Positions 2,522 to 27,870 of a DNA stretch of 34,821 bases are shown here, piece by piece. The stretch is from NCBI RefSeq assembly GCF_014696435.1, contig NZ_JACJQG010000090.1:1-34821 (forward strand), written 5' to 3'. A program made the position numbers and the translations under genes. Position 1 is the stretch's first letter, and the number at the start of each line of letters is the position of its first letter. The notes below the pieces were generated by a model. That model saw only the letters and a program-made list of their open reading frames with translations. It was not told the DNA's origin and did no database searches. The DNA comes from Calothrix anomala FACHB-343 (GTDB lineage: Bacteria; Cyanobacteriota; Cyanobacteriia; Cyanobacteriales; Nostocaceae).

Positions 2522-2533
2522 TTAGAGTTCCCA
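2522..2533 (-). promoter_or_regulatory. Conserved upstream motif of the tpsA array, copy 1
   Basis: On the minus strand this reads TGGGAACTCTAA, ending 29 nt before the tpsA1 ATG. The same motif occurs at the same distance before the other three tpsA genes, while the DNA between motif and start codon differs. That points to a selected promoter or leader element. Its exact role (promoter element, activator site) is inference. Confidence 0.55.
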
Positions 2534-2557
2534 TCCAGGGCATTATTTATAACATCA

Positions 2558-5173: not shown

Positions 5174-5203
5174 GTCTTAAATACTCCTTGGATATGACAC
5201 AAT

Positions 5204-5214
5204 TTAGATTTCCC
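5204..5214 (-). promoter_or_regulatory. Conserved upstream motif of the tpsA array, copy 2 (divergent)
   Basis: Minus strand GGGAAATCTAA, ending 30 nt before the tpsA2 ATG. It has one substitution relative to the GGGAACTCTAA core of the other copies. Spacing is conserved; function is inferred. Confidence 0.45.
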
Positions 5215-5276
5215 GAAATCGGAGAAATCCTAACAGTAAACAATATCCAAGAATTTATTTAGCTTTTAATTACGCT

Positions 5277-5345
5277 TTAAATAGTATTAATACGGGTTAA
5301 TACTTGTTTGAAAATGAGACAATATTTATCTGCAATTAATTCAAA
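5277..5345 (-). pseudogene. Vestigial tpsA 3' end
   Basis: The minus strand reads FELIADK...KQVLT...TI followed by a stop. It aligns with the tail of tpsA2 (KIELIADK...QQILTCAAVPKS), and at DNA level both 'ggttaatattt'-like and 'atttatctgcaattaa' blocks are shared. It lies directly downstream of intact tpsA3 and before tpsA2. It is the decayed end of a former extra tpsA copy or an unequal-recombination scar. No more than the last 23 or so codons remain recognisable. Confidence 0.6.
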
Positions 5346-5351
5346 CACAAA

Positions 5352-7814: not shown

Positions 7815-7844
7815 GCCTAAAATTATCTTTGACTCTAACTTTAA

Positions 7845-7856
7845 TTAGAGTTCCCA
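7845..7856 (-). promoter_or_regulatory. Conserved upstream motif of the tpsA array, copy 3
   Basis: Minus strand TGGGAACTCTAA, ending 30 nt before the tpsA3 ATG. Identical in sequence to copies 1 and 4. Confidence 0.55.
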
Positions 7857-7911
7857 AAATAGCATAGTTTCTAACTTGCCTCATCCAGGATACAATCTGT
7901 TATAGTTTGCT

Positions 7912-10374
7912 TCAGGGAATCGCCGCACAGGTTAATGGTTGTTTTTCTTCAATAGAAGATTGACGTGCAACTAACTCAATTTTACCTTGAGCGTTACGAT
8001 GCCAAGATGTAGCTTGGACAATAACCTCTGTTGATTGGGGAATTTGTGCCGTAATTGCGCCATTGTGCTGGAATGCAGAGATATCACGGATGTCTGACCA
8101 AGTGCGATCGCTTGTCAATTCCTGCGTCGGATTTTGCGGTACACCACCCCTTCCCGTGGCGATAAAACTACTACCAGTATTTGCAGCACAACCACTAGCA
8201 ATTTGTTGCGATGGATCAGTGATATTTGCTGGTAATTCAACTAAGGCAGAATTGGGATCGACACCAATATTATTAACGTTAACTATACCGTTAATGCCAA
8301 ATTCTGAACTTGCAGTAATATCATTTTCAACAGTGATATGAGGACGAAATTCTAAACCGAAAATACCTTGAGTATTAATGTTAATATTGCCACCTTGTCC
8401 TTGAAAAGCATTGGCAACGATATCGCTATTTTCCCAGCCAAACAGGATCGGTGAATTAATGCTAATATTGCCTCCGTGACCATTACCGCCTGCGGTGGAG
8501 GTAATTTGACTGCGATCGCGCAACCCCAAAAATTTACCCACCTGTAAATCAATATTGCCACCATTACCGGATTCTGTCCTGGCCTCGATTAAAGCTTGAT
8601 TTTTTAATTCAATACTATTAGCATGAATTTTCAGAATACCAGCATTACCAGTACCTTGATTGGTAACAGTCACAGTTCCTTGGTTTTCCAAGATCAGGTT
8701 TGGTGTTGTCAGGTCAATCGTACCAGCATCAGCAGTCAGTTTATATTGTGATAGTCCAAATAACTTCTGCAATACTGAGTTGAGAATCAGAGCAGAGGAG
8801 TTAATAGCACTCGGTGTTAAGGGATTGTAACCATTAACTTCCACAAATTCCGTAGCATTGATCCTCACATCCCCAGCATGACCGATAAAATATGAACTTG
8901 TGCCAACTGAGGCACCATCTATCACTTTTAACCTAGCGGTATCTATAGTTAAAGTTTTAGCATTGCCAACATTAAAAGTAACTGAGGCAATTCTTGTACC
9001 GAAGGGAGAGCTATTACTACTCTGCACAGTGGTATCTTGGTTACGAACCACAATTTCACCACTAGAACCAACACCCCGCGATACGGAAGACACTCCGCCA
9101 CCATAGGATACAAGTAAACTATCGCCCTTGATAAAAATATTACCTGCATTTCCAGCGCCAAAGGTACTGGTGTTAATAAAACTACCAGTGGCATTGTTGG
9201 GCGATAAGCCTGATATCTCTACATTTTTGGCATTAACCTGAATATTTCCACTATTAGACAATCCATAAGTATTACTACTTAATATTCCTCCATCGTAGAG
9301 ATTGAGTTTGGGTGTAATCACACTGATATTGCTACCAGTTCCCTGGCTCCAGGTTTCACTACGAACGCCACTCACTGCACCAATCAGATTGATACTTTCA
9401 GTTGCTTGAACAGATAAATTCCCCCCAGGCAAATTACCATGATTTTGCGCCAGTAACAGCGAGCCATCGGTAAATTGAATCTGCTTACCTTGTATCTGCA
9501 CAGAACCAGCATTGACTCCACTGACATCTAGTAAGGATTTTTGGGCAATTTGAATATCTCTAAAGCTGTTTACGTTTCCATATCCTAATGTATACCCTTG
9601 AGTGGTTGAAATCAGGTCAACAAATTCTGAGCTACCTACACTACCCAACTCAATGTTACCAGTTTCAGCATTTAGGGTTGCTCCATTGAGATTAAGATTA
9701 CCACCTACCAACGCCAGTGTTTTTCCTGGTTGTACTCTCAGTTGTGTCAGACTGGAAGTACGAATAATGGGAGATAGTATATTAGCAATATTTAAGCTAT
9801 ATCCTGTACCTTGAGCAGCGATTGCCCCTGGATTTTGTCCCATCTGCAACCCTACAGGTACGCTCATCGTTAGCAAAGGTGGTGCGGAAGCATTCACAGC
9901 ATTAAATTCTACCCCATCAGCAAACCTAATACTATTTGCTGTCGTTGCTATAAACGATCCACTAATATCCAATTTGGCATTTTGTCCAAATACAATGCCT
10001 TTGGGATTAATTAAAAATAAACTTACAGGATGATTACTATTAAGAGTTTGAATTAACCCATCAATATGAGAAGCATTTCCACCAGTAACCCGACTAAATA
10101 TAGTTGTAATATTGGGTGTATTCACTAGATCAAATTTTGCCGATCCACCTGTAGGGACAGAGAAATTACTGAAACTGTGAAATAAATTATTACCTTTTTG
10201 GCTGCCATTGAGAATATCAAAATTATTACCGTTGGTATCGATTAAGGTGTTGGTAGTTCCATCAGATGTCACCTGAGCAAAGACTGGTAAGCCACAACCT
10301 AAAGCATATAAACCAACAGATATCAGCAAATAAGCCTTAATTTTCTGGTTTGTGGCTTTGCAAATCGCTCTCAT
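7912..10374 (-). CDS. TpsA4: secreted filamentous haemagglutinin-like protein with an NPKG variant
   Basis: Fourth TpsA paralogue, 820 aa, nearest to TpsB. The signal peptide spans about residues 1-34 (ends VFAQ), followed by the TPS domain, beta-helix repeats and the conserved tail (SGCAANTGSS...LTCAAIP). The tail stops two residues earlier than its relatives, which end PKS. The usually invariant NPNG motif of the TPS domain reads NPKG at residues 123-126, and the following block has ATTANSIRFADG instead of GTTANSIKFADG. AAGGA is 8 nt before the ATG. The rest of the protein looks intact, so it may be functional; whether the changed motif alters recognition by TpsB is open. Confidence 0.9.
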   Translation of the reverse strand: MRAICKATNQKIKAYLLISVGLYALGCGLPVFAQVTSDGTTNTLIDTNGNNFDILNGSQKGNNLFHSFSNFSVPTGGSAKFDLVNTPNITTIFSRVTGGNASHIDGLIQTLNSNHPVSLFLINPKGIVFGQNAKLDISGSFIATTANSIRFADGVEFNAVNASAPPLLTMSVPVGLQMGQNPGAIAAQGTGYSLNIANILSPIIRTSSLTQLRVQPGKTLALVGGNLNLNGATLNAETGNIELGSVGSSEFVDLISTTQGYTLGYGNVNSFRDIQIAQKSLLDVSGVNAGSVQIQGKQIQFTDGSLLLAQNHGNLPGGNLSVQATESINLIGAVSGVRSETWSQGTGSNISVITPKLNLYDGGILSSNTYGLSNSGNIQVNAKNVEISGLSPNNATGSFINTSTFGAGNAGNIFIKGDSLLVSYGGGVSSVSRGVGSSGEIVVRNQDTTVQSSNSSPFGTRIASVTFNVGNAKTLTIDTARLKVIDGASVGTSSYFIGHAGDVRINATEFVEVNGYNPLTPSAINSSALILNSVLQKLFGLSQYKLTADAGTIDLTTPNLILENQGTVTVTNQGTGNAGILKIHANSIELKNQALIEARTESGNGGNIDLQVGKFLGLRDRSQITSTAGGNGHGGNISINSPILFGWENSDIVANAFQGQGGNININTQGIFGLEFRPHITVENDITASSEFGINGIVNVNNIGVDPNSALVELPANITDPSQQIASGCAANTGSSFIATGRGGVPQNPTQELTSDRTWSDIRDISAFQHNGAITAQIPQSTEVIVQATSWHRNAQGKIELVARQSSIEEKQPLTCAAIP

Positions 10375-10487: not shown

Positions 10488-12962
10488 TTATAGTTTTTCA
10501 TTTAATCTTGCTTTTGCTGCAGCGCGTACAACTCGATTTCCATCTTTCGCCAAAATTTGCAGAATTTCTGTTGATGTTTGCGGATTTTGGATGATGAGAT
10601 AACGTTCATACCAAGTAAATAAATTTAATGTTTTTAATTTTTGGAAAAAATATTCCTTAGGTAATTTAAAATTTTGGATAATAGCCAACCGAAATGGTAT
10701 TGAATCGATTGTGCGACCATTTGGTTCTATATACTGAACTAGATATTTGCTAGCGATTTCCGGAGCAATTTGTATTAGTTTTTTGACTGCTATTACAAAA
10801 ACTTTATGTTCTTTAAGGTTATGGTGACGTTGATAACGAGTATAGATACCGGGTGTATATTGATAATTTTTCGCTAGAATTTCTAGTATAGGAATTGGAG
10901 TATTAATGTTGTTAGCAACTGCTAGTCTCACAGCTTTATTTTTATCTTTTGCTAGCTTTTCTAGACAATTTCTAGCCTTTTCAGAATAATTATATGCTTC
11001 CATAAAGCGAGCGTTTTGGGCAACAGCTTCGCGAATCAATACAGATTTATGCTTGGCTAGTTCAATTAATTTTTCGATAGGAGTCTGCGAGCAGACTGCT
11101 GCATTATATGCAATTAAAAAAATATTTTGATGCTCACTATTAGCGAATTTATCTTTATATTTAATTAATGCAGCTTGGCGAACATCTGAAGTTATATCAT
11201 ATAATGAATTTTCTATAAAATCTAATGATATATGGGGATTTTGCAGCATTAGCCATCGCAGTCTATAGCCACTTAAATCTCTGAATTGTATGTTAGCTAT
11301 TTTGTGGCAAATTTCATTAGTTATATGTGGATGAGAAGCTACTGCTGCATATATATCTACACTACGAATATTTAAAATTTGTAGTAGTAAATCTGGCGAT
11401 AAATCAGGATTACAAACTACTTGTTGCCAAATATTATGTACTACTTCCCAATAAATATCGGTGGGTACAATCTTAATCAATTCCAATAATTGAGGAATTG
11501 GTGTCATTGCACTTGCGGCTATGTCATATTGTTCTTGACTAGGTAGTTCTTTTATTTCAATTCCTTGATAGTCGTATTCGCCGTTAAACAGCCTGCTCCA
11601 CAGATAAATATAATTAGATTTGCTGTAAATATACTGTAATTCTAATTGCGCGCGTAATTCTGGGGAAGTAGCTGGATTTAAGGCGATATTTTGCAGTATA
11701 CACCTATCTTGCTCTTGGTAAAGAAGTCGTACAATTTCTGATGGAGTATGGGGATTTTTAGCCACATCAGCACGGACATGGACATGGCGATCGCGCGATA
11801 ATATCTCAAGAATGTCTGGAGGTGTTTGGCTATTTAACGCTACTGCTCGACGCACGAGAATGCTTTTATCTTGAGTAAAATGTTTAAGTATATGTATATC
11901 TGCACAAGGATGACTAGCAACAGATACCCTGATTCTCCATTCAGGCGATCGCGCTAATTTTTCTAGATCGCTTAACTCTAGATTTGGATGCTTTGCAACT
12001 CTGACGCGAATAAATGACCATTTACTCGTACATAGTTCCCGTAACTTTTCTACCTCTGTATGCGGATGAGTTGCTAAAAATCGTTCTTGAAAAAAACTAT
12101 TAACTATTGACCTTGGTAAACTAGGATTTTTCATCGCTGTTTCCCTGACCATCCTAGAATTATGATTAACAAGTTCAATTAAACATTCAACAGGTGTATT
12201 TTTATTTTTAGCAACTTCAATCAGCGTGGGAATTTTAATTTTTAAAGTTAACAATTCTCGTAAATATTCTGGGGGAGTATCGCTAAATCTAGCGATAGTT
12301 TCCTGAATATATTCTGAAGCTTGAGCAAGTTGCAACTTAGGCTCAATTCCTAACAGCCAAAAAGTAAATTGATAATATTCTCCTTTACCACTGTTATAAG
12401 AATCACATCCCAATGGAGCAGTATTGTATAATCCTGATGCAATAATATCATGAATATTTTGTAATTTATTATCTGCATATTCTTGCCACCCTGAAGGCAT
12501 TTCTCCGGCAATATTGACATGCATTTCTATCAATTCTCGAATAAAATCATTACAATATTGATTTTCCGTCACTAATTGCAGTACTTTTTTGCTGACTTGA
12601 GGATTTTGCACAATTAGCAATAAATAATCATAATATCCAGAAGTAGCAAACTCAATTAACCATTCTTCAGGAGCATCTTCAGAGGCTAAAATATTTAGGA
12701 TAACTTCATGGGGAATTGTTTTGTAAAAAGCAGGATTTTCTAAATGTAATAAAGGTAAAATTGGATTTTTAATAAACTCTATGGGAAATTCTTCTGCTAG
12801 TTGAAATAACACATCTATAGGAGTATTAGGATTGCTAGCTACAGCTTGACGAACTTGTATATCTTTATGTCTCGCCAATTCTGTTAATAATTCTGGTGTA
12901 GTATCGATATTATTTGCGGCTGCAATTGCTACTTGATTACTGAGTTTTATAAATTCTTCCAT
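10488..12962 (-). CDS. Leucine-rich-repeat-variant (LRV/HEAT-like) repeat protein
   Basis: An 824-aa protein made almost wholly of short alpha-helical repeats of the type V-A-x-N-P-x-T-P-x-x-x-L-x-x-L-A-x-D/H-x-x-x-x-V-R-x-A. Examples are VRQAVASNPNTPIDVLFQLA near residue 37 and VRADVAKNPHTPSEIVRLL in the middle. This is the pattern of leucine-rich-repeat-variant proteins, which form a curved solenoid that usually binds other proteins. There is no signal peptide or membrane segment, so it is probably cytoplasmic. The ATG at 12960-12962 follows AGGA by 4 nt. It lies between tpsA4 and the small nuclease-like gene, on the same strand. The DNA looks more AT-rich than the neighbouring tps genes. 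The partner is unknown and a role in secretion is not shown. Confidence 0.75.
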   Translation of the reverse strand: MEEFIKLSNQVAIAAANNIDTTPELLTELARHKDIQVRQAVASNPNTPIDVLFQLAEEFPIEFIKNPILPLLHLENPAFYKTIPHEVILNILASEDAPEEWLIEFATSGYYDYLLLIVQNPQVSKKVLQLVTENQYCNDFIRELIEMHVNIAGEMPSGWQEYADNKLQNIHDIIASGLYNTAPLGCDSYNSGKGEYYQFTFWLLGIEPKLQLAQASEYIQETIARFSDTPPEYLRELLTLKIKIPTLIEVAKNKNTPVECLIELVNHNSRMVRETAMKNPSLPRSIVNSFFQERFLATHPHTEVEKLRELCTSKWSFIRVRVAKHPNLELSDLEKLARSPEWRIRVSVASHPCADIHILKHFTQDKSILVRRAVALNSQTPPDILEILSRDRHVHVRADVAKNPHTPSEIVRLLYQEQDRCILQNIALNPATSPELRAQLELQYIYSKSNYIYLWSRLFNGEYDYQGIEIKELPSQEQYDIAASAMTPIPQLLELIKIVPTDIYWEVVHNIWQQVVCNPDLSPDLLLQILNIRSVDIYAAVASHPHITNEICHKIANIQFRDLSGYRLRWLMLQNPHISLDFIENSLYDITSDVRQAALIKYKDKFANSEHQNIFLIAYNAAVCSQTPIEKLIELAKHKSVLIREAVAQNARFMEAYNYSEKARNCLEKLAKDKNKAVRLAVANNINTPIPILEILAKNYQYTPGIYTRYQRHHNLKEHKVFVIAVKKLIQIAPEIASKYLVQYIEPNGRTIDSIPFRLAIIQNFKLPKEYFFQKLKTLNLFTWYERYLIIQNPQTSTEILQILAKDGNRVVRAAAKARLNEKL

Positions 12963-13907: not shown

Positions 13908-15677
13908 TTAAAACGGCGAATACTGCACTGAAAAATACAGCCCATTTTCTTGCAAACTGCGTTTTTCACCCTCCACAGAAGTAAGGGGAATACCCCAATC
14001 AAACCTGGCTGAGAAAGTATCGCCTTGTTTCCACAGTAACCCTAACCCAGTACCCACTAAAGTACTTGGTGATGGATTGTCGCCCTTAACATTCCAGCCT
14101 GTACCCACATCAATAAAGGGTGTTAGTTGGAGGACTCCGCCCAACTTAGGAGCGCGGAGAATCGGTAACCGCAATTCTGCGGAGAACAACATACCATTAT
14201 CTGTAAGTAATGTATCCTGGCGGTAGCCGCGCACACTTAGCTGTCCACCTAGACCAAATTGTTCTAAGGGTACAAGGGAATTTGCGGATAGTTGGATATC
14301 GCCTCTAGTTAAAAATAGGGTATCTGGCGCTAACTGTCGCACCCACTGAGCTTGTCCGCGCCAAGAGAAAAAGCGGCTATCTGGTTCATCTTGATTAACA
14401 TTGGCTCCGAACCAATCTACACCTAAACTAAATTGCGATCGCAGTGCAAAAACTTGGCTGGTACTACGCTGAGTATAATCTTGAAAAAAGCGCAGGGCGG
14501 AAATATTGGTTCTTCCTTGCTCATCTGCGCCTGGTGAGAGGCGAAACGGGCCGATATTATCAATACCTAACTCAGTTTGGCTTTCCTGGCGCGAAAACGA
14601 GAAACCTACTGCTAATTCTTGGGTTGGTTTTTGCAGTAACGGTTGACGATAGCTAAATTCGTAAGAAGTCGTATCTGATTGAATATCAAGAACGCTGAAT
14701 GGTTCTTCTATGACACGGTTCCAACCTTTGTTAAACCCAAAGGAGAGAGTACCATTGTGCGCATTAATTGGTAGTGTGTAATTGAAATTAATTGTATTAC
14801 TGCCATCGGTATTGGCGTAGCCGATACTCAGAGTATCGCCTAAACCGAGTAAATTCGCTTCTTGCAGATCCACACCCCGACGAAAACTACCCACGCTAGG
14901 CGATCGCCCATTATCTATACTGGTTGTTAGTCTAAAGGTATCAGCTTCTTGGATTTCCACCTGTAAAATATTACTTCCCGGACGCACACCCATCTGCAAC
15001 TCTGCTGATAAATTTTGAATGCGCGGATCGAGGCGGAGGAGTTGCAGCTTTTCTAGTAAGCGGGGTACATTCAACGGCGTTCCTGCACCCAGTTGAATGC
15101 GCGAGCGAATATATTGACTATTTAATCGTCGGTTACCAACAATTTTAATTTCTTGCAGACTACCTTCAATTACCTGAATTTTGATGGTTCCATCTTCTAC
15201 AGTTTGCGGTGTAATCAACGCTCCTGTGGTGACATAACCCTTATCTGTGTAAAGCTTGGTAATTGCATCTTTGATTTGTAATAACTCTGCAAATGTCAGT
15301 TCCTTACCCAGATAAGGTTTGGTAATCACCGCAAACTCTTCTGGTTTGAAAACTGTACTCCCAACAACTTCAATGCGATCGACACGAAATTTAACATTAG
15401 CCCCATTCTCTGCGGGATTTGATTGATCTGGTATTGTTGGTAGCGGTAGTAATTGATTGTCTTCTGGTGGTGACGGTAGTACCTCTGAGGGTAATGGCGT
15501 TACTGGTACTTCTTCTACCCTTCCTGGTGGTAAGGTTTGAGGATTTGCAGTTTGAGCTATAGCATTTTCATAATTGCCCGTGACAGCTAGGAAAAAAAAG
15601 CCAAATGTCAGCGATTTCAGGCTAAAAATGTATTTTAAAGACCTATAAGAAATTGGGTTAGAGCCAATAGTCATCAT
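13908..15677 (-). CDS. TpsB: outer-membrane transporter (ShlB/FhaC/HecB family)
   Basis: Two-partner secretion transporter of the Omp85 superfamily that recognises TPS domains and exports TpsA proteins. Layout: signal peptide (first about 40 residues, ends AIAQ), a proline-rich linker, POTRA domains (VDRIEVVGSTVF... and LQEIKIVGNRRL..., about residues 96-230), then a 16-strand-type barrel. The barrel has the conserved loop motif VRGYRQ at residues 482-487 and a C-terminal phenylalanine. The start chosen is the ATG at 15675-15677, because AAGGA lies 7 nt upstream; the frame stays open further upstream to a TTG at 15725, which lacks a comparable site. Length 589 aa. It is the only TpsB here and so the likely exporter for four TpsA paralogues. 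Confidence 0.9.
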   Translation of the reverse strand: MMTIGSNPISYRSLKYIFSLKSLTFGFFFLAVTGNYENAIAQTANPQTLPPGRVEEVPVTPLPSEVLPSPPEDNQLLPLPTIPDQSNPAENGANVKFRVDRIEVVGSTVFKPEEFAVITKPYLGKELTFAELLQIKDAITKLYTDKGYVTTGALITPQTVEDGTIKIQVIEGSLQEIKIVGNRRLNSQYIRSRIQLGAGTPLNVPRLLEKLQLLRLDPRIQNLSAELQMGVRPGSNILQVEIQEADTFRLTTSIDNGRSPSVGSFRRGVDLQEANLLGLGDTLSIGYANTDGSNTINFNYTLPINAHNGTLSFGFNKGWNRVIEEPFSVLDIQSDTTSYEFSYRQPLLQKPTQELAVGFSFSRQESQTELGIDNIGPFRLSPGADEQGRTNISALRFFQDYTQRSTSQVFALRSQFSLGVDWFGANVNQDEPDSRFFSWRGQAQWVRQLAPDTLFLTRGDIQLSANSLVPLEQFGLGGQLSVRGYRQDTLLTDNGMLFSAELRLPILRAPKLGGVLQLTPFIDVGTGWNVKGDNPSPSTLVGTGLGLLWKQGDTFSARFDWGIPLTSVEGEKRSLQENGLYFSVQYSPF

Positions 15678-16227
15678 GTTGTAATCCTTTTTGTCACTCC
15701 CCGACAAAGAAAATTTGTGCATCAAGCCTGTCTAGATCGGGCTTTTGGTTAGTCAATCTCACCACCCTCTAATCCCAGGGAATTTTTCCCTTTAAATTTG
15801 GAATTAGAGATTGGCTATGAATTCTCAGATTCTGCGTACAATAATTGAGCAGAAGCTAGAAAAGCTACCAAAAAGCGGCAATTAGCGACAACCAGCAAAT
15901 GATATTTTTTTAACTTATATTGTAAGTAGTAATTCTGGAGAAAATATGAGGTTTTATATTATAGTCTGCTAAAAAAGGCAAATCGGGTGATTTCGGGGAA
16001 AAAGCTGTTAAGATAAAAGTTTTTATTTTACTAATTTCAAAAACTGTGCTTAAGTATATTTAACCAAGTATTGCAGTAAAAAATATACAAAAAAATTATA
16101 CTGCCATAGATGATAGATGTCTGGTAGATGTTGAGAATACAGAAACTTCAGGAGAAAACTCAGATTTTATCAGAGCGATCGCAGATGTGAAGCAATTTTA
16201 GATTTATTCACCGGATAAAAATAAATG
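15678..16227. other. AT-rich intergenic region upstream of tpsB
   Basis: About 550 bp without a supportable gene. It holds a short dyad GGGAA-TTT-TTCCC (15778-15790), AT-rich runs near 15900-16090 and one HIP1 site near 16177. It probably contains the tpsB promoter (minus strand), but no box is clear enough to mark. The tpsA motif TGGGAACTCTAA is not present at the corresponding position. Confidence 0.4.
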
Positions 16228-16380
16228 AAAAACTCCACCCACAAGGGGATGGAGTTTTTGGGCATGGGGAATGGGGCATCGGGCATGGGGAAGAAATTAC
16301 CAATGCCCAATGCCCAATGCCCCAAGCGGCGGGGCGGCTGTCCCTCTCCACCCACAAGGGGATGGAGTTTCCCGCCGCTT
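16228..16380. repeat. Composite hairpin/short-repeat element, copy 1
   Basis: Two hairpins of the type CTCCACCC-ACAAGGGGA-TGGAG (16228-16259 with flanking A5/T5 arms; 16346-16367) enclose a stretch of CATGGGG/CAATGCCC short repeats. The second hairpin is nested in a 10-bp inverted repeat AAGCGGCGGG/CCCGCCGCTT (16324-16333, 16371-16380). A second copy of the whole unit occurs in inverted orientation at 19517-19647. Transcribed, the first hairpin with its T-run would resemble an intrinsic terminator. Confidence 0.75.
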
Positions 16381-18629: not shown

Positions 18630-18832
18630 AGTCAATTAGCGAAGTTTTGATGACTTATTGGTAAGTACTTTATTGTCTGTAACAACCCCCATCAACAGCC
18701 AAGCAGATTAAATATATAAATTAAATTCGGCACAGTTGATGAATCTACACAGCAGATAACTTTTTCAGTGTATCCACCGGAGTCATTTATCCTTAACAGT
18801 TAATAAAATTACTAATATTCACGTCTGTGAGT

Positions 18833-18940
18833 GTCACTAATTCAAGTTAGTGACTGTTGCTGATTGTTGGGAAGGTGTACGGATAACCCTTTTGGGGGTT
18901 TTCCTGCATAATAGGCATCTGTAAAAGATGCCTTTTTTTT
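18833..18940 (+). ncRNA. Candidate structured RNA ending in an intrinsic terminator
   Basis: Three successive inverted repeats occur in about 110 nt of non-coding DNA: GTCACTAA/TTAGTGAC (18833-18840, 18847-18854), a GGATAACCC/GGGTTTTCC hairpin with one mismatch (18881-18904), and a strong terminator (18913-18940). This is the layout of a small RNA or a long attenuated leader. I do not recognise the family, and no promoter is certain; TAAAAT/TACTAAT-like sequence upstream near 18805-18818 is only suggestive. Confidence 0.35.
18913..18940 (+). terminator. Rho-independent terminator
   Basis: AGGCATC (18913-18919) pairs with GATGCCT (18927-18933) over a 7-nt loop, followed by an uninterrupted T8 tract. 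It ends either the operon at 16480-18629, with a long 3' untranslated region, or a separate small RNA. Confidence 0.8.
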
Positions 18941-19516: not shown

Positions 19517-19647
19517 GCAGGAAACTCCATCCCCTTGTGGGTGGAGAAGTTACCTGCCTGGGGCATTGGGCATTGGTAACTCTTTACTATGCCCTATGCC
19601 CTATTCCCCATGCCAAAAACTCCATCCCCTTGTGGGTGGAGTTTTTT
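19517..19647. repeat. Composite hairpin/short-repeat element, copy 2 (inverted)
   Basis: Reverse-complement counterpart of 16228-16380: hairpins at 19525-19546 and 19615-19647 (AAAAACTCCA ... TGGAGTTTTTT) enclosing GGGCATTG and ATGCCCT short repeats. The outer GCAGG/CCTGC arms (19517-19521, 19553-19557) replace the GC-rich arms of copy 1. The last hairpin with its T6 run should terminate transcription from the small secreted protein gene, and the A-run on the other side makes it bidirectional. Confidence 0.75.
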
Positions 19648-19735
19648 ATTGTCGTGTGTCTATTGCTAACTAGGCAAACAGTAAGGAAGAAGGCTATTCC
19701 GAAATTTATCACCTAAAAATTTATACTCGCATAGG

Positions 19736-19780
19736 TTGACAAACTTATTTACATCATTTAGTGTAAACCTCTAATGATGT
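19736..19780 (+). promoter_or_regulatory. Probable promoter and operator of the pPIWI-RE operon
   Basis: A perfect -35 box TTGACA (19736-19741) is followed after 20 bp by TGTAAA (19762-19767), or after 17 bp by TAGTGT. A perfect dyad TTTACA-N8-TGTAAA (19748-19767) covers the spacer and -10 region. A second inverted repeat, ACATCATT/AATGATGT (19751-19758, 19773-19780), includes the start codons. There is no Shine-Dalgarno sequence, so the mRNA could be leaderless. The long spacer plus dyad recalls MerR-type promoters, and the first gene has a MerR-like N-terminus. Autoregulation is therefore a reasonable inference, not a demonstrated fact. Confidence 0.45.
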
Positions 19781-21312
19781 ATAGTAAACATATGAAATTT
19801 GAAAGCGTGCGTCAGTGGCAGGGAACTGCGGATGCACTCACAAAGGAACTTAAACACCAGATTAAACACTTGAGACTGTCAGTAGAGCCACCAGCCTTGC
19901 GAACCGTGCGGGCGTGGAGAGCAAAGCAACTTTTATCACAACCTAAAGGAGAAGAATTTGGATTTCGGCAAATTTTGGAGGGATTAGCAACAATTTTACT
20001 ATTAAAGAAAGGTTGGACACTAGCAGCGATCGCGCAAGTATTACCTTCTTTCTCTGCAGATACTTTGGAGTTGCAAATTCTGGCGGAAGCTCAAGGACAA
20101 GACCCTACATGGCTACCCACCATCACCACAACTTCTTTGCCGTTACCGACTGGACACAGACCACCAACGGATCTGGCTGAAGATGCCGTAGTTTTGTTAG
20201 CACAAGGAATTATCCGTCAGTATGACCGAGTGCTACCAGGGCAACAAATTGTCCGTCAAGAGGATAGTACATTGCCGCCAGAACTCTATCAAGCAATGTG
20301 CAAATTAGGTCGTTTATATATTGAAGAAGGACAATGCGATCGCGCGGCTTGTGTACATACTGTTTTGGATAACGCACGCTACCCGCTTGGTTCTGAACGT
20401 TGGGGGTTAGGAATTTTTAGCCAATCAGACTTTCGCTTTTCTAACGCAACCATCATTGATCCAGATTTGCGAGTTCCCACCTCAGACTGTGCCGAGATTG
20501 CCAACCTCAGTAGCGGTTTTGGGGAAAATAACGTTATTGAACATCGGCTTTATACTGACTTATGCGACGCAACTCAAAGGTTGGGCGGCCGTCGTCAACA
20601 TAAGGCTTACACTGCATTACGAGAGTTGTTTGGTAGGTATTCTCTGATTGGACAACGCCAACTATTTGATTACTTGGTTGACAATGACTTAACTCCTTTA
20701 CAGGGAATGATTCTTGATAATTTTTTCGATTTAGTACCGGATATTTGGCTAATTGATGGTTTAGCAAACCGTTGCGCCCACTGTGGCACACTTATGCGGC
20801 CTCACCCTAACAATAGGCTGTTTTCAGAAGGGCGTTGTCCTATTCGCCAGTGTATTGGTCATGAATTGCCAAAAGTGTCTGAGAAACTAGATCCCAACGA
20901 AGACATTTTACGAATTGCCAAGCCGCAAATTCTCACTTACTGGACAGGCCCAGCAATTGACGAATTAGCCATATTTGATACAGCTAGACAAAACGGACTA
21001 GATGCTGAACTTTATCCAGAGTCGGATTTATGCGATATAGCGATTAATGAAAAAGTAATTGGAATTGATGCTAAGTCCTATACAAGTCCGGTGACTTTAG
21101 CTTTGCGGCTAAATCGTAGTATTGGCGGTCTGATTTATTATCGTCGTCGGATTTTGGCTGTGAGCGATCGCTTAATTGAGGATAACCCAAGCTACATTTC
21201 CACCCTCAAATCAACACTTGATAAAAAAGGTGATGCAGCCAGTTTAGAAATTATGTCAGTTTCCTCGGTCATTGAGTTTTTACAGAAGATACCCTATGCG
21301 AACCAAACCTGA
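19774..21312 (+). CDS. pPIWI-RE-associated nuclease with MerR-like HTH, zinc ribbon and PD-(D/E)XK domain
   Basis: First gene of a three-gene island, 512 aa. Visible layout: a MerR-like winged helix at residues 40-92 (TVRAWRAKQLLS ... FGFRQILEGLATILLLKKGW); a helical middle; a zinc-ribbon candidate with C334-x2-C337 and C355-x4-C360; and a C-terminal restriction-endonuclease fold with D421 (LCDIAI) and D433-A-K435 (IGIDAKSY). In the predicted pPIWI-RE system this protein is the DNA-cutting partner of a DinG-like helicase and a PIWI protein. The start is the first of two adjacent ATGs; another in-frame ATG lies at 19792, and none has a clear ribosome-binding site. The 3' end overlaps the helicase gene by 17 bp. 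The PIWI-RE assignment rests on the whole operon more than on this protein alone. Confidence 0.8.
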   Translation: MMYSKHMKFESVRQWQGTADALTKELKHQIKHLRLSVEPPALRTVRAWRAKQLLSQPKGEEFGFRQILEGLATILLLKKGWTLAAIAQVLPSFSADTLELQILAEAQGQDPTWLPTITTTSLPLPTGHRPPTDLAEDAVVLLAQGIIRQYDRVLPGQQIVRQEDSTLPPELYQAMCKLGRLYIEEGQCDRAACVHTVLDNARYPLGSERWGLGIFSQSDFRFSNATIIDPDLRVPTSDCAEIANLSSGFGENNVIEHRLYTDLCDATQRLGGRRQHKAYTALRELFGRYSLIGQRQLFDYLVDNDLTPLQGMILDNFFDLVPDIWLIDGLANRCAHCGTLMRPHPNNRLFSEGRCPIRQCIGHELPKVSEKLDPNEDILRIAKPQILTYWTGPAIDELAIFDTARQNGLDAELYPESDLCDIAINEKVIGIDAKSYTSPVTLALRLNRSIGGLIYYRRRILAVSDRLIEDNPSYISTLKSTLDKKGDAASLEIMSVSSVIEFLQKIPYANQT

Positions 21313-24300
21313 TTTTTGGAAAGGTGCAGAGCGAATTTGTTGGCTTTGCGTCTTCATGGAAGAATTTATCGGCACTAATTCACTGGAGTATGCGCCAGTA
21401 GTTATGTCAGGTATGGCCAGCATTTTAAATGCACCTACCTTTGCACAAGCCCGTCAAGCTATTTTCAATATGCGTCAGATGTCACTGGCTTATGTAACGC
21501 ACCAATCAGTGAAGCACGCGATCGCTCTCTATAACAATTATCATTACTGCAACAATACTCAAGGGACGTATGAAATTGATATTGAAACACTTCACTTTCA
21601 CAGGACTGACGCTTTAGAAGATTCGTCAATTACAAAGGCGCGGCAAATTCTTAGTAACCCTTTGCCCTACGACACCTATAGTTTTACAGTTGCCGATCCT
21701 CGTCAGCCAATGGCTGTGGCGTTAGGTGAAGACTCAACCTCCGTAAAGTTAGACATTCCGCGTATTTCTGCCCCGATAGCTGCACGTCGTACACATTCCC
21801 TCAACCGCCAACCAAGAGGAAAGATTTGCATTCCCCTAAAAGAACTGCACGATTTGGCTCGTGAAATGGACGAACGTGAGAAGCAAGATCCTGGGCGACG
21901 ATTAGGTAATTGGAAAGAGCGCTTTGAACGCTTTGACCTGATGGTGTCGGAGGCTGGAAAAGGACTGCGGAAAGAAAATGATGTGTTGGAATTAGAGGAT
22001 ATCAAACACTTAATTGGTTTACCTGGGTCGGGTAAAACAACGTTGCTGGTGTTGATAGCTGTATGGTTGGGGCTACATGACTATAAAGCAATGTTTGTGT
22101 TTCCCTCCATTGAAGTTGCTAGACAGTACATGGCTGATTTGGCATTTCATCAAGTTAAAGTGGGAATGCTTGTCGGTCAAGGTGATGAAACTCGTCGTCA
22201 CCACGCAGACAATATTGCAGAAGCGATCGCCGCCATAGGAAATAATGGTGGTTTTGCTTACAGCTTAGAACAGGCAGAAGTTTTTGGACTCAACTGTGTT
22301 CTACCAGCTTTTTCTACTGCGGATACGTCTTTTTGGGGGTTTGGTTACGCACCTTGCAACGAGATATTGCAAGGAGGAGGGAAACAGGGAAAGATGAAAA
22401 AATGCCTGTGTCCCCTCTGGACAATGTGCGGTCGTAATAAAGCACAGCGAGATTTATTAGATGCCAATATTTGGGTTGGTCATGTGCGATCGCTTGATAC
22501 TCAAATATCACCCCATGCAACTTACGAACAGTTACGATATTTTGAATTAATCGCCCGTACCTTTGACCTAGTTGTTTTTGACGAAGGCGACATGGTGCAG
22601 AAAGTCTTAGATGATTATGGCGCTGCAACTTTAAGTATTTCCGGTTCAGAACGCTCAATTCATAGAGTAATTCTCGAACAAATTCATAATCGCTTTGCTC
22701 GTGGTGAAAACTATCGACTATTTGATCGGGATATAGAACTTTACAGCCGTGACTTAGCAGAATTTGGCAATCATAATACCTCTTTGATTACCACCATCCA
22801 TAATATGTCAGGGTCGCGTGTAAGAGAACGCTACGAAAATCAATTGCTGACTGTATTACGGATTGTTAGCGAACTATTGAATAGTGTTAAAAAATCTCAT
22901 AAGCAAGATGAAATTGATGAACAAGAGGTCAAAACAGAAGTTACCAGAAGTCGAGCATTAGCTGAATTTTGGGAAAAAGCAGCATATAACGCCTTTTATG
23001 ACCGCACAGGAGTTAATAACCCTCAAGATTTTAAAGCAGATTTTTGGCCTCATTATATAGGCATAAACAAAGAAACCTTAGAAAAGGAATGGAAGACTCT
23101 CATTCATCATTTTCGCCGTTACTTAGCTGAAAATCTCATTAAACAACGTGATGCGATTGTCCAAGAAATTATTGAAGTATTTTTCAAACTTTGTTTTCCC
23201 AAGCATCAATTAACTATAGAAACAGAGGATTTAATTAAATTACTTATAACTGTTACATTCGTAATTTTGGGTTATCAGCGAATTGTACCAGGGACAAGAA
23301 CAATGCTTGCAGAAGGTTTCATTCGTGAATCAGTTATGGAATCAACTGCATCACCAGAACTTAGAAAATTTATTCCCGAAAGCATTTTAGGTTCATTTTC
23401 TGGTGTGCGATACAGTTTTTTCAAAGCACTAACAACGCGCACTGCGGCTAGAAATATGGAGTTATCTTACATTACATTCGTAGGTGCGCCTCGGATGTTA
23501 ATGCACCGCTTTCATCGGTTGTTAGAGGCAGATAATGGACAAGCCAGTCCCACTATTTTAATTACCTCAGCTACATCATTTTTACAAGCCAGTCCTGCCT
23601 ATCATATTAACGCCGGGCCACATTATTTACTCAAACCACATCAGCCAAAAAATCAGACATCAGCAAAAAGCACTTATTATTTCAAATGGTTTTCAGATAG
23701 TCAACGGGGCGATCAACCTCTACTATACAGTGGCGCAGGCGATCGCAAAATGCAAACACGTAATCTTGAGCTGATGGTAGATGCTCTTGTCAAAGGAGGA
23801 AAAACTAAATCTGAAATTTATAAAGCTATGAATAAATTTGATATCAAGTCTGGTATTCGCCGTAAAGCAGCTTTAGTTGTTAATGGTTATGACCAAGCAC
23901 GCGATATCAAAAAATATATCAATACCTATTATCCTGATGTTGGTAGGCATACAAAAGCAGTTGTGAAGTCTCTAAAAGAAGGGGAACAACCAAAAGATTT
24001 TATCACTTCTGCGCAATGTGAAGCATTAGGAGATGATGAAAATTGTCACATTTTAATCTTTCCCCTGCTGGCAATTGGTAGAGGTGTCAATATTGTTTTT
24101 ACCAAAGGGGAAAGAAAGCTAGATGCAGCAATTGGCTCAATTTATTTCCTCACCCGTCCTCACCCTACTAAAGATGATATGCAGCTTTTGTATAGCTTAA
24201 CAGGACGAGCAACACAAGAATTTGATAGTCGAGTTTTTAGTGAAATAGAAGATTTGAATGCCATAGCAACAGCTTGGCGACAATCAAGAAAAGACTTGTG

Positions 24301-24721
24301 GTTAACTGCCAATAGATTGTTGCGTGAACCCTTAATGGCAAGCCGTTTAGGGACTGAACTATTCAAATCATTTACGGCTAATCAAATGGTAGCTATTCTG
24401 CAAACAATTGGTCGAGGAATGCGGAATGGATGCCCAGTATCAGTTTACTTTGTTGATGCAGCTTGGGCTAAAAAATCAACAGAAGGTAAAGCCGATTCTG
24501 GACGAGATAGTATGCTGATTCAGATGCGAATTATTTTAGAAGAATGTGTTAAGCACGAAGACCCCGTAATTCGAGAAATTTATCAGGAACTTTATAGCGC
24601 ATTTCTAGAACCTTTACAGCGCATTCAAGGAGTAATTTATTCTGATGAATTACATTCCTTAGAAGAATCGGCGGATGAAGAAACAGGTTTTGACGAATTT
24701 TCACCACTATTGGAGATGTAA
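21296..24721 (+). CDS. DinG/XPD-like helicase of the pPIWI-RE island
   Basis: An 1141-aa superfamily 2 helicase, the second gene of the island. After about 230 unassigned N-terminal residues come Walker A (GLPGSGKT, 241-248), a cysteine cluster (C334, C354, C370, C372, C378) in the place where DinG/XPD helicases hold a 4Fe-4S cluster, and Walker B as DEGD (429-432) instead of DEAH. These are followed by SAT (758-760) and motif VI QTIGRGMR (Q1036, R1040, R1043). Relatives with this layout unwind 5'-3' and resolve forked DNA or RNA-DNA hybrids. The ATG at 21296-21298 lies inside the end of the nuclease gene; an upstream in-frame TTG (21272) is less likely. Its stop is 2 bp before the PIWI start, so all three proteins are probably made in fixed ratio. 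The C-terminus is acidic. Confidence 0.85.
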   Translation: MRTKPDFWKGAERICWLCVFMEEFIGTNSLEYAPVVMSGMASILNAPTFAQARQAIFNMRQMSLAYVTHQSVKHAIALYNNYHYCNNTQGTYEIDIETLHFHRTDALEDSSITKARQILSNPLPYDTYSFTVADPRQPMAVALGEDSTSVKLDIPRISAPIAARRTHSLNRQPRGKICIPLKELHDLAREMDEREKQDPGRRLGNWKERFERFDLMVSEAGKGLRKENDVLELEDIKHLIGLPGSGKTTLLVLIAVWLGLHDYKAMFVFPSIEVARQYMADLAFHQVKVGMLVGQGDETRRHHADNIAEAIAAIGNNGGFAYSLEQAEVFGLNCVLPAFSTADTSFWGFGYAPCNEILQGGGKQGKMKKCLCPLWTMCGRNKAQRDLLDANIWVGHVRSLDTQISPHATYEQLRYFELIARTFDLVVFDEGDMVQKVLDDYGAATLSISGSERSIHRVILEQIHNRFARGENYRLFDRDIELYSRDLAEFGNHNTSLITTIHNMSGSRVRERYENQLLTVLRIVSELLNSVKKSHKQDEIDEQEVKTEVTRSRALAEFWEKAAYNAFYDRTGVNNPQDFKADFWPHYIGINKETLEKEWKTLIHHFRRYLAENLIKQRDAIVQEIIEVFFKLCFPKHQLTIETEDLIKLLITVTFVILGYQRIVPGTRTMLAEGFIRESVMESTASPELRKFIPESILGSFSGVRYSFFKALTTRTAARNMELSYITFVGAPRMLMHRFHRLLEADNGQASPTILITSATSFLQASPAYHINAGPHYLLKPHQPKNQTSAKSTYYFKWFSDSQRGDQPLLYSGAGDRKMQTRNLELMVDALVKGGKTKSEIYKAMNKFDIKSGIRRKAALVVNGYDQARDIKKYINTYYPDVGRHTKAVVKSLKEGEQPKDFITSAQCEALGDDENCHILIFPLLAIGRGVNIVFTKGERKLDAAIGSIYFLTRPHPTKDDMQLLYSLTGRATQEFDSRVFSEIEDLNAIATAWRQSRKDLWLTANRLLREPLMASRLGTELFKSFTANQMVAILQTIGRGMRNGCPVSVYFVDAAWAKKSTEGKADSGRDSMLIQMRIILEECVKHEDPVIREIYQELYSAFLEPLQRIQGVIYSDELHSLEESADEETGFDEFSPLLEM

Positions 24722-24723
24722 AA

Positions 24724-27700
24724 ATGATGAATAACTTTGATAATGAAATTGAATTTGAAGAAGATTTATTGGCAGAAGAGGAAGACGAAGAAATTGAAGG
24801 TGATTTCGTCTCAGATACATTGTATATCCAGCCAGGTCAAATCAAATCAATCGCAAAATTTCCTTTAGCTTTCACAGTACCAGATAAACTACCCCCAATT
24901 ATAGTAGAGGGTTGCACTCTTACTTGGACAAAACCAGCGTTGCAATGTTTTGGCGAGATTCAACAAGCAGCTAATGTCAAAAATCTTCCTTATGGCTCAT
25001 TGCGAAATTTCATACAAGTTGTCTTAAAAAATGCAGCAAGAATTGAACCAGAGATAGGCCTTAGCAAATATGCTTTGAATTCTGCTAAAGGCGATAATTT
25101 ACCAGAACCTTTTGTTTACTTTACTGGTGGCAATGAGGAAGAAATAAATAGAATGCTTCGCCCAATTATTAATGATTGGTTGACAAACTATCTCAAACCA
25201 TTTGCTGAAAAGGAGGATATATCAATAGGGATTATTGAACGCTTGGAAGATTTGCAAGAAAGAGGAGAGTTAATAAAAGTTGCTGCATTCAAATCTCAAG
25301 TATTACCTTGGGCTTGGAATACAAAGACGGATACAACTCAACCTAAAGATAAATATGCCTATCGAATGCTTGCAGATTATGTAGCTCGTCAAATTGCTGG
25401 ACAAGTTATTTTTCCAGAGTTAGGGCCGATGAAACGTGTTATTTTCAGCAATGGTACATTTAGTTCTGGTATTGCAGAACTGATTACAGATCCGATTACC
25501 TTAGATAACAAAAAAGGAAAATTCAGTTTTATAGTGAGATTAGAAGTTATTACTTATCCATCTTTACATCAACCTTTATTACAAGTTGAGGTTTCTAAAC
25601 GTCGCTGGTTCACTCAGTTAAAAGCTCCTGAATATGACCGTAGAAATATTAGCGGCTTCATATTTTCTCAAGAGCATACCGATCGCGCCTTCAGCTATCA
25701 AGTAAAATGCGAACGAGATAAAAAAGGTAAAAATGGTAAAACCAACAAAGAAGAGCAGGTAAAATGGGTTTGGAGAACAGATAAGGATTTTGAAATCCTG
25801 CGGAGAAAATTAAATCTGGGGTCATCTAGTGATGGTCAAGAAATCGCTTTGGGTTTAGCTTCTACTGATAGCTGTCAGGTACTTCTAACTTACCGTAATG
25901 GACTACAAGATAATTCAGAAGACGACGAAGAAACTTCAGAAAAATACGGTATTGAAACAGGTGTACCAGAGATTGATAAATTAGATGCGTTTGAAGCGAT
26001 CGCTAAAATTCTTCAACCATTAGGAATCGAAGTATTTAAGGATTGCGAAAAAGTACCATCTACCCACAAACTAGATGATACAGCATCACGCATGATTAAT
26101 CTTCCTACACTGCTTGGTGGTGTTTTGGAAGCTCTTCAAACAAATACTAAGTTAGAATTTACGCCGAAATATCTCGAACAACTCAATGATAAACAAATTG
26201 ATGACTTGCTAAGTAAATATTTTGGCATTCGTTTAGAAGGGATTCATTGGGGAAGAAAAGCTCTTCAATTCAAGGTAGGCACACTGAATCAAACGACTGA
26301 ACTTCAAGACCTGATTCAAGCAAACCAGACAGCGATGCAGAGATTGTATCCTAATGAACGACCGTCACTGTTTATCTTTTATGAAGCTCATTTACAAACA
26401 GAAGTGAAGCTGTTGCAGAAGGTTACTCAACTTTTGTGGAGAGATACACTTAAAGTAGAAATTAGTCGCTTGCCAGAAGATACTCATGGGCCAAAAGAGA
26501 TTCTACCAGGAAAAGAATTGAAGGCTAAAGAGCGATCGCGTGAGCGAATTAAAGCATGGGAATCCACTACACAACAGATTAAAAAGCTCAATCAGCCAAC
26601 TTTCTGCTTAATAATGGCGCGACAGTTTTATCCAAATCCTAATGGACAAAACAATGTCAAACCTGATGATAAAGTTAATAAACCCTCAACCCGCAAAGCA
26701 TTAGCAATGGCTGGTGCTGGTGTGCAATTTCTATTACCCATCGAAAAGACTCGGAAAGCAAATCATCTTAAACTTGCAGACTTTTTCCATCGGATGCAAT
26801 CAGCATTAAAAGACTTAATTTTTGCTCATTCTGGTCGTATTGATGAGGTCAAAGAAAAAGTTGATAAGTACCTGCAAAATATTCCACCGGAAGCAAGACC
26901 AAAAGAAATTATTATAACTACAATCGTCCGTAAACAAAAAGGTCGCGTTCGTGGCAAAATAGAAAGTACATTTTTACCAATAGCAATCCGCCTCAATGTG
27001 GATACAGGTAAATGTGAATTTTGCTGTGCTTATGATAGAGGAAATTTAGTAATCAGGCCGTGGATTAGTTTTTCAGAAGCACGAGCTTTGGTTGCTGAAC
27101 TTACTCCTATCAAACTGGCTGATAAAGAAAAGATACGCCAGACTAGATTCATGGACTTTGTGGAACAAATTGTTTCTAATTCTGTGGAAGAAGGGAAGCA
27201 ACCATTGGTTATGATTGATTCGTCCAACTGCGTTCAACTATGGCCTTGGTTAGCTGATATTAGAATAAATGCTAATCAAATCAACCTTGGTTCGTATCAA
27301 GATATGCAAGTTAACTGGCAAGGCGCACGTATAATTCGTATTCGCCAAGAACTTGCACCTGGCATTATTGAGAAAAAAGCCAGACATATCATAGAAACTT
27401 CTGTAGAAGATACCAGAACTAAAGAAGAACTAAAAAAACTGCCGCCTGACAAGAAAATTCCTTCAGCATCTAGTGCAACTGGTTTATTTAGACTCAGCGC
27501 GACTAACAAAACTGGATGCGTAGCTTATCTATCTGTAGCGCGTGAGCTACCACATCAACATACTCGCGGTCAAAGTTGCTATCGCTCAACCTACAGTCTG
27601 GATAAAAAAACTAGTTTACTCACTAAACAAGCTCCGTTTGCAGGTCGCTGGCCTACTCCCAACCCCCTTGAGATTGTCGTTACCCTACGTCAACCAGATG

Positions 27701-27870
27701 ATAATCCTGATGACTTAGCGGCTCTTGTAGAGTCACTACGCTACGGGTTTGGTCACTACAGCGATTGGACAGCCTTACCTGCTCCCTTATTTTTTGAGCG
27801 CGTTGTACGCGACTACATCAGCGATTTTACAATTGAAGACGAGGAAACGGAAGTAGAATCAGACTCGTAA
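24724..27870 (+). CDS. pPIWI-RE protein (divergent PIWI/RNase H-fold protein)
   Basis: Third gene of the island, 1048 aa. The C-terminal 250 residues match the RNase H-fold PIWI module of the pPIWI-RE family: a first strand with LVMIDSSN (D832 as candidate active-site acid), ARIIRIRQE (R869, R872, R874, E876), VARELPHQHTRG (R940-E941) and a closing LRYGFGHYSDW...LPAPLFFERV segment. The long N-terminal part (about 30-560) would hold the family-specific and MID-like regions; I cannot delimit them. Residues 8-27 are almost all acidic, and the C-terminal tail is acidic too. The family is predicted to bind guide or hybrid nucleic acid and to act in defence against plasmids or phages, possibly at R-loops. 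GGAG precedes the ATG by 8 nt. Family recognition is strong; activity is unproven. Confidence 0.82.
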   Translation: MMNNFDNEIEFEEDLLAEEEDEEIEGDFVSDTLYIQPGQIKSIAKFPLAFTVPDKLPPIIVEGCTLTWTKPALQCFGEIQQAANVKNLPYGSLRNFIQVVLKNAARIEPEIGLSKYALNSAKGDNLPEPFVYFTGGNEEEINRMLRPIINDWLTNYLKPFAEKEDISIGIIERLEDLQERGELIKVAAFKSQVLPWAWNTKTDTTQPKDKYAYRMLADYVARQIAGQVIFPELGPMKRVIFSNGTFSSGIAELITDPITLDNKKGKFSFIVRLEVITYPSLHQPLLQVEVSKRRWFTQLKAPEYDRRNISGFIFSQEHTDRAFSYQVKCERDKKGKNGKTNKEEQVKWVWRTDKDFEILRRKLNLGSSSDGQEIALGLASTDSCQVLLTYRNGLQDNSEDDEETSEKYGIETGVPEIDKLDAFEAIAKILQPLGIEVFKDCEKVPSTHKLDDTASRMINLPTLLGGVLEALQTNTKLEFTPKYLEQLNDKQIDDLLSKYFGIRLEGIHWGRKALQFKVGTLNQTTELQDLIQANQTAMQRLYPNERPSLFIFYEAHLQTEVKLLQKVTQLLWRDTLKVEISRLPEDTHGPKEILPGKELKAKERSRERIKAWESTTQQIKKLNQPTFCLIMARQFYPNPNGQNNVKPDDKVNKPSTRKALAMAGAGVQFLLPIEKTRKANHLKLADFFHRMQSALKDLIFAHSGRIDEVKEKVDKYLQNIPPEARPKEIIITTIVRKQKGRVRGKIESTFLPIAIRLNVDTGKCEFCCAYDRGNLVIRPWISFSEARALVAELTPIKLADKEKIRQTRFMDFVEQIVSNSVEEGKQPLVMIDSSNCVQLWPWLADIRINANQINLGSYQDMQVNWQGARIIRIRQELAPGIIEKKARHIIETSVEDTRTKEELKKLPPDKKIPSASSATGLFRLSATNKTGCVAYLSVARELPHQHTRGQSCYRSTYSLDKKTSLLTKQAPFAGRWPTPNPLEIVVTLRQPDDNPDDLAALVESLRYGFGHYSDWTALPAPLFFERVVRDYISDFTIEDEETEVESDS

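Follow-up and report, generated by a model that had tools for sequence, protein, structure and literature searches.

The contig NZ_JACJQG010000090.1 of the cyanobacterium Calothrix anomala FACHB-343, 34,821 nucleotides long and analysed here over its full length (the window), is one entire contig of a 9.24-Mb genome and carries a complete pPIWI-RE three-gene island at positions 19774-27870. The island encodes a PD-(D/E)XK protein (hereafter REase, for restriction endonuclease), a DinG-like helicase and a PIWI protein. It is an added member of the system predicted in 2013 by Burroughs, Iyer and Aravind as an RNA-dependent restriction system (PMC3702460), and not a new system. We would give about an even chance to the view that the trio is a mobile restriction module, in which a guide-binding, poorly cutting PIWI protein would serve as sensor and would act with the helicase and with the REase as effector. 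Such a module would resemble DdmDE, in which the Argonaute has no catalytic activity of its own and brings in a helicase-nuclease that bears a PD-(D/E)XK domain (PMC12409362, PMC12904381). The three genes are as follows.

19774..21312, plus strand: REase gene, 512 amino acids (aa), PD-(D/E)XK protein (PF18154, 54.4 bits; PprRE, 397.6 bits)
21296..24721, plus strand: helicase gene, DinG/XPD-like of superfamily 2 (SF2), 1141 aa from its ATG, with an N-terminal domain Z (PF18155, 111 bits; PprDinG, 1039.5 bits)
24724..27870, plus strand: pPIWI-RE gene, 1048 aa (PF13111, PF18157 and PF13032 over their cut-offs; PprPIWI, 311.5 bits)

All three genes are full-length open reading frames on the plus strand. 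Those of the REase and of the helicase overlap by 17 bp and a gap of 2 bp separates the helicase gene from the PIWI gene. An earlier note, made from the letters of the sequence, had proposed a complete pPIWI-RE trio with this very spacing at 19774..27870, and the gene coordinates, the Pfam families and the PADLOC models agree with it. Above curated cut-offs, Pfam assigns the REase to PF18154 (pPIWI_RE_REase), the helicase to PF18155 (pPIWI_RE_Z) and the PIWI protein to PF13111, PF18157 and PF13032 (domains X, MID and RNase H of pPIWI-RE). The third protein thus matches the Pfam pPIWI_RE families against which the note proposed to compare it, and PF13032 supports the reading of its C-terminus as an RNase H-fold PIWI module. 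The PADLOC models concur, PprRE, PprDinG and PprPIWI being matched by the three proteins. A scan of the trio proteins against NCBIfam gave no match at E 0.001, and no relative was found at E <= 0.001 when each protein was searched singly by sequence against the PDB. Profile searches of the PDB at E <= 1 returned one row for the PIWI protein (E 0.077) and 18 for the REase (E 0.31 or worse), all judged to be chance matches. The helicase gave 74 rows, with reverse gyrase as the best (E 3.7e-5); among the best 60 of the 74, almost all lie at the P-loop. The genome has one copy of the pPIWI-RE family, and its scan for the classical Piwi family PF02171 found none.

Comparison with the published description leaves little doubt on membership. 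The X, MID and RNase H domains, the Arg and Glu of the family, the REase with its zinc ribbon, the DinG helicase with a Cys-rich insert and domain Z, and the order and close ends of the genes are all found here. The island described in PMC3702460 has the same three families, the same domain orders (Z-DinG; helical region-Zn ribbon-REase; X-MID-PIWI), the R and E residues, the same gene order and the same tight spacing. Nothing essential differs from the account given there. Both active and inactive pPIWI-RE versions are reported to exist (PMC3702460); the window copy would probably stand among those whose RNase H centre is incomplete. An Acaryochloris REase served as a query in that work, so that cyanobacterial members were already known. 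The proposal made there is that RNA-DNA hybrids are sensed by PIWI, opened by DinG and cut by the REase (PMC3702460).

The trio behaves as a unit. The gene order REase-helicase-PIWI is kept in 61 of 61 loci, the window included, for which each of the three genes gave a usable row. Pairwise protein distances correlate across the trio at 0.79-0.90 (Spearman), the largest value among 200 permutations being 0.114; the three genes are co-inherited. On a FastTree tree of 70 PIWI proteins, host family codes switch 34 times, where 16 codes require a minimum of 15; this count has no shuffles for comparison and the program warns of long branches. Ratios of nonsynonymous to synonymous substitution rates (dN/dS) to six relatives are 0.10-0.19 for the REase, 0.14-0.18 for the helicase and 0.22-0.31 for the PIWI protein, the comparison with L039 covering only 94 REase codons. 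All three genes are under purifying selection.

The motifs of the REase and of the helicase were examined in alignments of the three proteins, drawn from ten named loci, seven plasmid loci and 60 of the 80 other sites that the search of the order had found. Rows were picked by similarity and length, and truncated or very divergent copies fall outside this sample. The features concerned are listed below.

19900..20046, plus strand: possible MerR-like helix-turn-helix, REase aa 43-91 (PF13411, E 0.073, below cut-off; same place in two relatives, E 0.079 and 0.047)
20773..20853, plus strand: zinc-ribbon-type cysteines C334, C337, C355 and C360 of the REase (C334, C337 and C360 in 68/68 rows; C355 in 54/68)
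20959..21276, plus strand: REase fold domain, aa 396-501, with D418, D421 and D432-A-K434 (PF18154; the three D and the K in 68/68 rows)
22016..22042, plus strand: helicase Walker A, GLPGSGKTT, aa 241-249 (G241, G246 and K247 in 69/69 rows)
22295..22429, plus strand: helicase iron-sulfur (Fe-S)-type cysteines C334, C354, C372 and C378 (each in 69/69 rows)
22580..22591, plus strand: helicase DE box, DEGD, aa 429-432 (D429 and E430 in 69/69 rows)
24401..24424, plus strand: helicase motif VI, QTIGRGMR, aa 1036-1043 (R1040 and R1043 in 68/69 rows, with one gap)

Judged on these residues, the REase and helicase motifs look intact and are invariant among the aligned relatives. The first protein had been read as a PD-(D/E)XK protein, which PF18154 and the residues D418, D421, D432 and K434 support in all 68 rows. 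The second had been read as a DinG/XPD-like helicase with Walker A, Fe-S-type cysteines and motif VI, in keeping with PF18155, PprDinG and the residues conserved over 69 rows. The nearby C370 of the helicase is not conserved in these rows.

Such a REase may also be imagined to recognise modified invading DNA, the PIWI protein and the helicase being accessory. Modification-dependent restriction of this kind would fit a REase that comes without a methylase, a situation likened to Mcr systems (PMC3702460), and Pfam calls none of the 16 scanned neighbours a methylase. We consider it very unlikely, since Pfam finds no modified-base reader domain in the three trio proteins at E 0.001 and the constant linkage to a MID-PIWI protein suggests recognition of a guide or of a hybrid.

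The PIWI protein raises a more delicate question, for which the following features are needed.

24868..26064, plus strand: N-terminal domain X, PIWI protein aa 49-447 (PF13111)
26392..26847, plus strand: MID domain, aa 557-708 (PF18157)
26920..27822, plus strand: PIWI/RNase H domain, aa 733-1033 (PF13032)
26920..26922, plus strand: T733, best-aligned position for the first catalytic Asp of prokaryotic Argonautes (pAgos) (hhalign to 30 pAgos, weak; Asp in 0/71 rows)
27217..27219, plus strand: D832, presumed second catalytic Asp by position and motif, outside the profile alignments (D in 37/71 rows; in 28/28 Thr733 rows)
27343..27345, plus strand: R874, presumed family R by alignment and spacing (67/71 rows; invariant in clade A1, 23 rows)
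27670..27672, plus strand: E983, presumed family E by alignment and spacing (64/71 rows; invariant in clade A1, 23 rows)

R874 and E983 are presumed to be the published Arg and Glu of the family, an assignment of ours by alignment and position. E983 lies 66 residues from the C-terminus, as E718 does in the PIWI-RE protein of Pseudomonas stutzeri (PsPIWI-RE) if its length is taken as 784 aa. A separate observation concerns a PIWI clade (L097, L101, L102, L103) found in REase-DinG-PIWI trios without the presumed R and E: its members have Ile or Leu in the R874 column and Phe or Met in the E983 column.

Classical pAgos (PF02171) share with the window protein the MID and RNase H-fold PIWI domains. 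In the 30 cyanobacterial pAgos used, both aligned catalytic positions (D1 and D2) are Asp in 30/30; the window protein differs at the first. The D1 position was mapped by an hhalign profile alignment of the PIWI rows to these 30 Argonautes, and it lands on T733. Over 71 rows this column contains Thr (28), Tyr (14), Cys and Trp (9 each), Arg, His and Ser (3 each) and Ala (2), and neither Asp nor Glu; four further plasmid PIWI proteins have Trp, Ser, Ser and Gly. On the tree, the 28 Thr733 rows and L108 (Ser) make up one side of the root branch. The column of D832 is composed of Asp (37), Glu (22), His (8), Ser (3) and Leu (1). Since no profile alignment reaches D2, only its position and motif identify D832 as the presumed second Asp. 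From these data, the first catalytic Asp is probably missing in the window protein. The earlier statement that all catalytic centres look intact is not supported: it holds for the invariant REase and helicase motifs and for the retained D832, and not for the first Asp position, occupied by T733 in a column with Asp in none of 71 rows, a weak alignment placing it there. The contrast between an aligned first Asp found in 0/71 rows and REase residues found in 68/68 is what the present data would add to PMC3702460, and it depends on that alignment. A candidate of a first alignment, N758/D760 as the first catalytic position, was dropped because D760 changes to E, Q and K within the window's own clade and because the pAgo profile alignment moved the site to T733. 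The Asp-Asp spacing does not separate the two columns: it is 77-118 residues from column 733 and 60-94 from column 758 to that of D832, for 85 in PsPIWI-RE.

On this basis, the following sequence of events can be proposed. The PIWI protein would bind either an RNA-DNA hybrid or a target together with a small guide of nucleic acid. It would itself cut poorly, because the first Asp of its RNase H centre would be gone. The DinG-like Fe-S helicase would be recruited and would then open the DNA or translocate along it, and the separate PD-(D/E)XK protein would make the cut. The target might be a plasmid, a phage or other invading DNA. The pattern of conservation, with invariant REase residues and a first PIWI Asp that is probably missing, suggests that cutting is left to the REase. 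It leads to a sharp prediction: the effector would be the REase, and not the PIWI protein.

Several observations weigh against this proposal. With all rows, the landing of D1 on T733 has an E-value of 0.0008 (single comparison) for an HH probability of 24%, which is weak; with the 28 rows of the window's clade alone, D1 falls on T733 at E 0.22 and a probability of 0.3%. The alignments of four other clades miss the D1 site, and none of the alignments reaches D2. Two rows (L039, L040) have a Glu at column 735, two residues past 733, and the 28 Thr733 rows all keep E728, D832 and E1025; an unusual metal site is therefore possible. Structure models were too low in confidence to be used, with a mean predicted local distance difference test score (pLDDT) of 39.6 for the full PIWI protein and 38.6 for its MID-PIWI part (10 rows each). 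The first of these unreliable models (39.6) places strands at 728-736 and 827-832, where strands 1 and 4 are expected. A trait of the described family is an additional helix behind the three-stranded meander of the PIWI domain; the first model has a helix at 783-792 past strands 728-736, 749-758 and 764-771, and the second model (38.6) has none there. Moreover, the related PsPIWI-RE does cut (PMC10991935), and its ciprofloxacin phenotype suggests another role, in replication or repair.

The P. stutzeri protein serves here as the experimental reference. It belongs to the same family, and its gene occurs together with two others, for a DinG helicase and for an additional nuclease (PMC10991935). 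It is described as an RNA-guided DNA nuclease and a DNA-guided RNA nuclease, the cutting of which requires D525 and D610 and neither R639 nor E718 (PMC10991935). The comparison was made through published residues and spacing. PsPIWI-RE has D525 and D610 and cuts (PMC10991935), whereas the window protein has D832 and, at the weakly aligned first position, T733. It is also shorter, with about 784 aa as inferred from its 2352-bp gene (PMC10991935), against 1048 aa in the window. The mechanism of the family had been said to be little tested. One experimental study was found, and among the matches listed, which do not cover most subscription papers and bioRxiv preprints, there is no other; the judgement has to be corrected in that this study reports a nuclease activity, two essential Asp and a ciprofloxacin phenotype (PMC10991935). 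PMC7641849 was discarded as a PIWI-RE source, its matches in the 11 passages listed being the word 'Piwi-related'.

In the light of PsPIWI-RE, the window PIWI protein could be an active guided nuclease with a shifted acidic site, for instance E728/D832/E1025, the REase then only making guides or finishing the cut. The cutting of single-stranded DNA with RNA guides and of RNA with DNA guides by the relative (PMC10991935), the three acidic residues invariant in 28 of 28 Thr733 rows and the weakness of the alignment that places the first Asp are in line with such a mechanism. We hold it to be unlikely, though worth keeping in mind, because the aligned D1 column has neither Asp nor Glu in 71 rows while 68 of 68 rows keep the REase residues, and because over all rows the D832 column also accepts Glu (22), His (8), Ser (3) and Leu (1).

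If the proposal of a poorly cutting PIWI sensor with a REase effector is right, the likeness to DdmDE is one of parts: an inactive Argonaute-type sensor, an SF2 helicase and a PD-(D/E)XK nuclease (PMC12409362, PMC12904381). The names DdmD and DdmE are swapped between these two articles; the usage of PMC12409362 is followed here. DdmD fuses helicase and nuclease and DdmE is a pAgo, whereas in the window these activities belong to separate genes and to other families. The trio would thus be DdmDE-like in its division of labour and is not a DdmDE member, having neither the fusion nor the pAgo partner. It is tempting to extend the idea, tentatively, to all the cyanobacterial islands, which would be DdmDE-like split systems: in every sampled lineage PIWI would be a non-cutting, guide-dependent sensor, and DNA would be destroyed by the separate, invariant PD-(D/E)XK protein moved by the DinG-type helicase. 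We find this generalisation somewhat less probable than its contrary. If true, the 'dead Argonaute plus helicase-nuclease' design would have been reached independently in these islands.

The island's mobility is best seen beside ycf51 (DUF2518), a gene present in 40 of 40 relatives. The earlier note had pointed to this locus for a comparison of related genomes, which can indeed be made there. Among 29 other genomes with ycf51 and 1.5 kb of flank (tblastn), an adjacent PIWI gene is present in one, a PIWI remnant in three and neither of these in 25. Ten of these loci were examined with longer flanks; in one (G509) the contig stops about 400 bases upstream of ycf51. Nostoc carneum NIES-2107 (G510) has the trio at the same ycf51 site. 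Between it and the window, the trio differs at 12.7-16.8% of fourfold sites, against 35.5-48.5% for the flanks (ycf51, the dehydrogenase, the aminotransferase and an upstream 138-aa gene, the latter with only 31 sites), and the 93%-identical segment that both have in common is the trio alone (19713-27869). It follows from this much lower divergence that the trio has been exchanged horizontally between lineages more recently than its flanks. The closest genome (G503; ycf51 97%, flanking genes at 6.5-16% difference at fourfold sites) has no trio at the site. In three congeners (G505, G506, G508), only about the last 55 codons of the PIWI gene remain beside ycf51; these remnants are loss scars. 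In G507, G504, G517 and G511, tblastn finds no PIWI trace beside ycf51. For the other nine named relatives, the trio flank examined contains no ycf51 match, so that their trio sits elsewhere. With close relatives whose ycf51 site is free of the trio, relatives with broken copies and the same-site copy of N. carneum, this intact copy makes a convenient test object. As a side observation, in G503 the site of the trio is occupied by a 1084-aa protein with matrixin, CARDB and calpain-type protease domains (L174:3814-7068).

These scars, shared by three congeners at one site, and the broken PIWI genes of the relatives L080, L038 and L053 might suggest that the window copy is itself a decaying or inactive remnant. 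Its three full-length open reading frames, under purifying selection, make this scarcely probable.

Distribution among genomes is patchy, as the comparison of presence and absence in relatives brought out. PF13032 matches occur in 65 of 291 sampled genomes of the order, 62 of them above the family cut-off, and in 36 of 122 genera. They occur in 9 of 292 genomes sampled from the phylum and in none of 14 control genomes, the order and phylum samples overlapping in genomes, the window's own included. The named relatives are ten Nostoc/Anabaena records with 73-88% identity. With the window PIWI protein as query, 15 of 72,556 plasmid records were found, cyanobacterial and proteobacterial with one from Hymenobacter. 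Plasmid records searched with five PIWI proteins gave no Pseudomonas copy. None of 50,697 phage records has a PIWI match, and no viral contig was confirmed with search patterns that reach close relatives only.

This distribution bears on another explanation, in which the trio would not be a defence system but would serve replication or DNA repair by clearing R-loops or stalled forks. Loss of PsPIWI-RE results in more ciprofloxacin sensitivity and in filamentation (PMC10991935), and R-loops are substrates of DinG-like helicases (PMC3702460), both of which speak for it. Patchy presence (65/291), loss scars, horizontal exchange and carriage on plasmids are nevertheless unlike a housekeeping module, and we regard this role as quite improbable.

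Several variant or damaged copies were noticed in the course of these searches. An extended variant is found on plasmids of Microvirga (L107:8899-19083), Bradyrhizobium (L111:8815-18117) and Azospirillum (L112:8791-18567), where the PIWI-RE part starts a protein of 3100-3400 aa, split in two in Azospirillum. Two of the three long proteins were scanned: the far part of that of Microvirga has an AAA_22 domain, and in that of Azospirillum the same domain scores below the cut-off. The gene of the long protein is followed by that of an AAA ATPase and preceded by a divergent WYL regulator, with the genes for REase and DinG upstream. On a Hymenobacter plasmid (L109:7508-10530), the PIWI gene is split over three frames downstream of REase and DinG genes. 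In the three relatives with broken PIWI genes, these are split into two or three frames and the REase and helicase frames remain; the REase of L053 is short and close to a contig end.

The neighbours of the trio are two-partner-secretion adhesins, a ShlB-type transporter, an O-antigen ligase-like gene, ycf51, an iron-type dehydrogenase, an aminotransferase and a response regulator. The Pfam scan, made here without PADLOC, covered 16 neighbouring proteins and assigned none to a defence family; several of them gave no match of any kind. A 24-bp repeat, imperfectly self-complementary by eye, stands at 16233-16256, 16346-16369, 19523-19546 and 19618-19641; genome-wide it has 33 places with at most one mismatch, eight of them being pairs 85-119 bp apart. 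Flanking repeats as the cause of the trio's mobility were set aside as unproven, for the 24-bp repeat flanks it on the left side only; another two copies occur at 16.2-16.4 kb. At 18811-18933 lies NsiR9, a nitrogen-stress-induced small RNA (96.1 bits). Further upstream, 9-10374 and 13908-15725 contain four tandem proteins with two-partner-secretion (TPS) domains (820-871 aa) and the ShlB/FhaC-type transporter, and between the TPS proteins and the transporter an 824-aa leucine-rich-repeat-variant/HEAT protein is encoded at 10488-12962.

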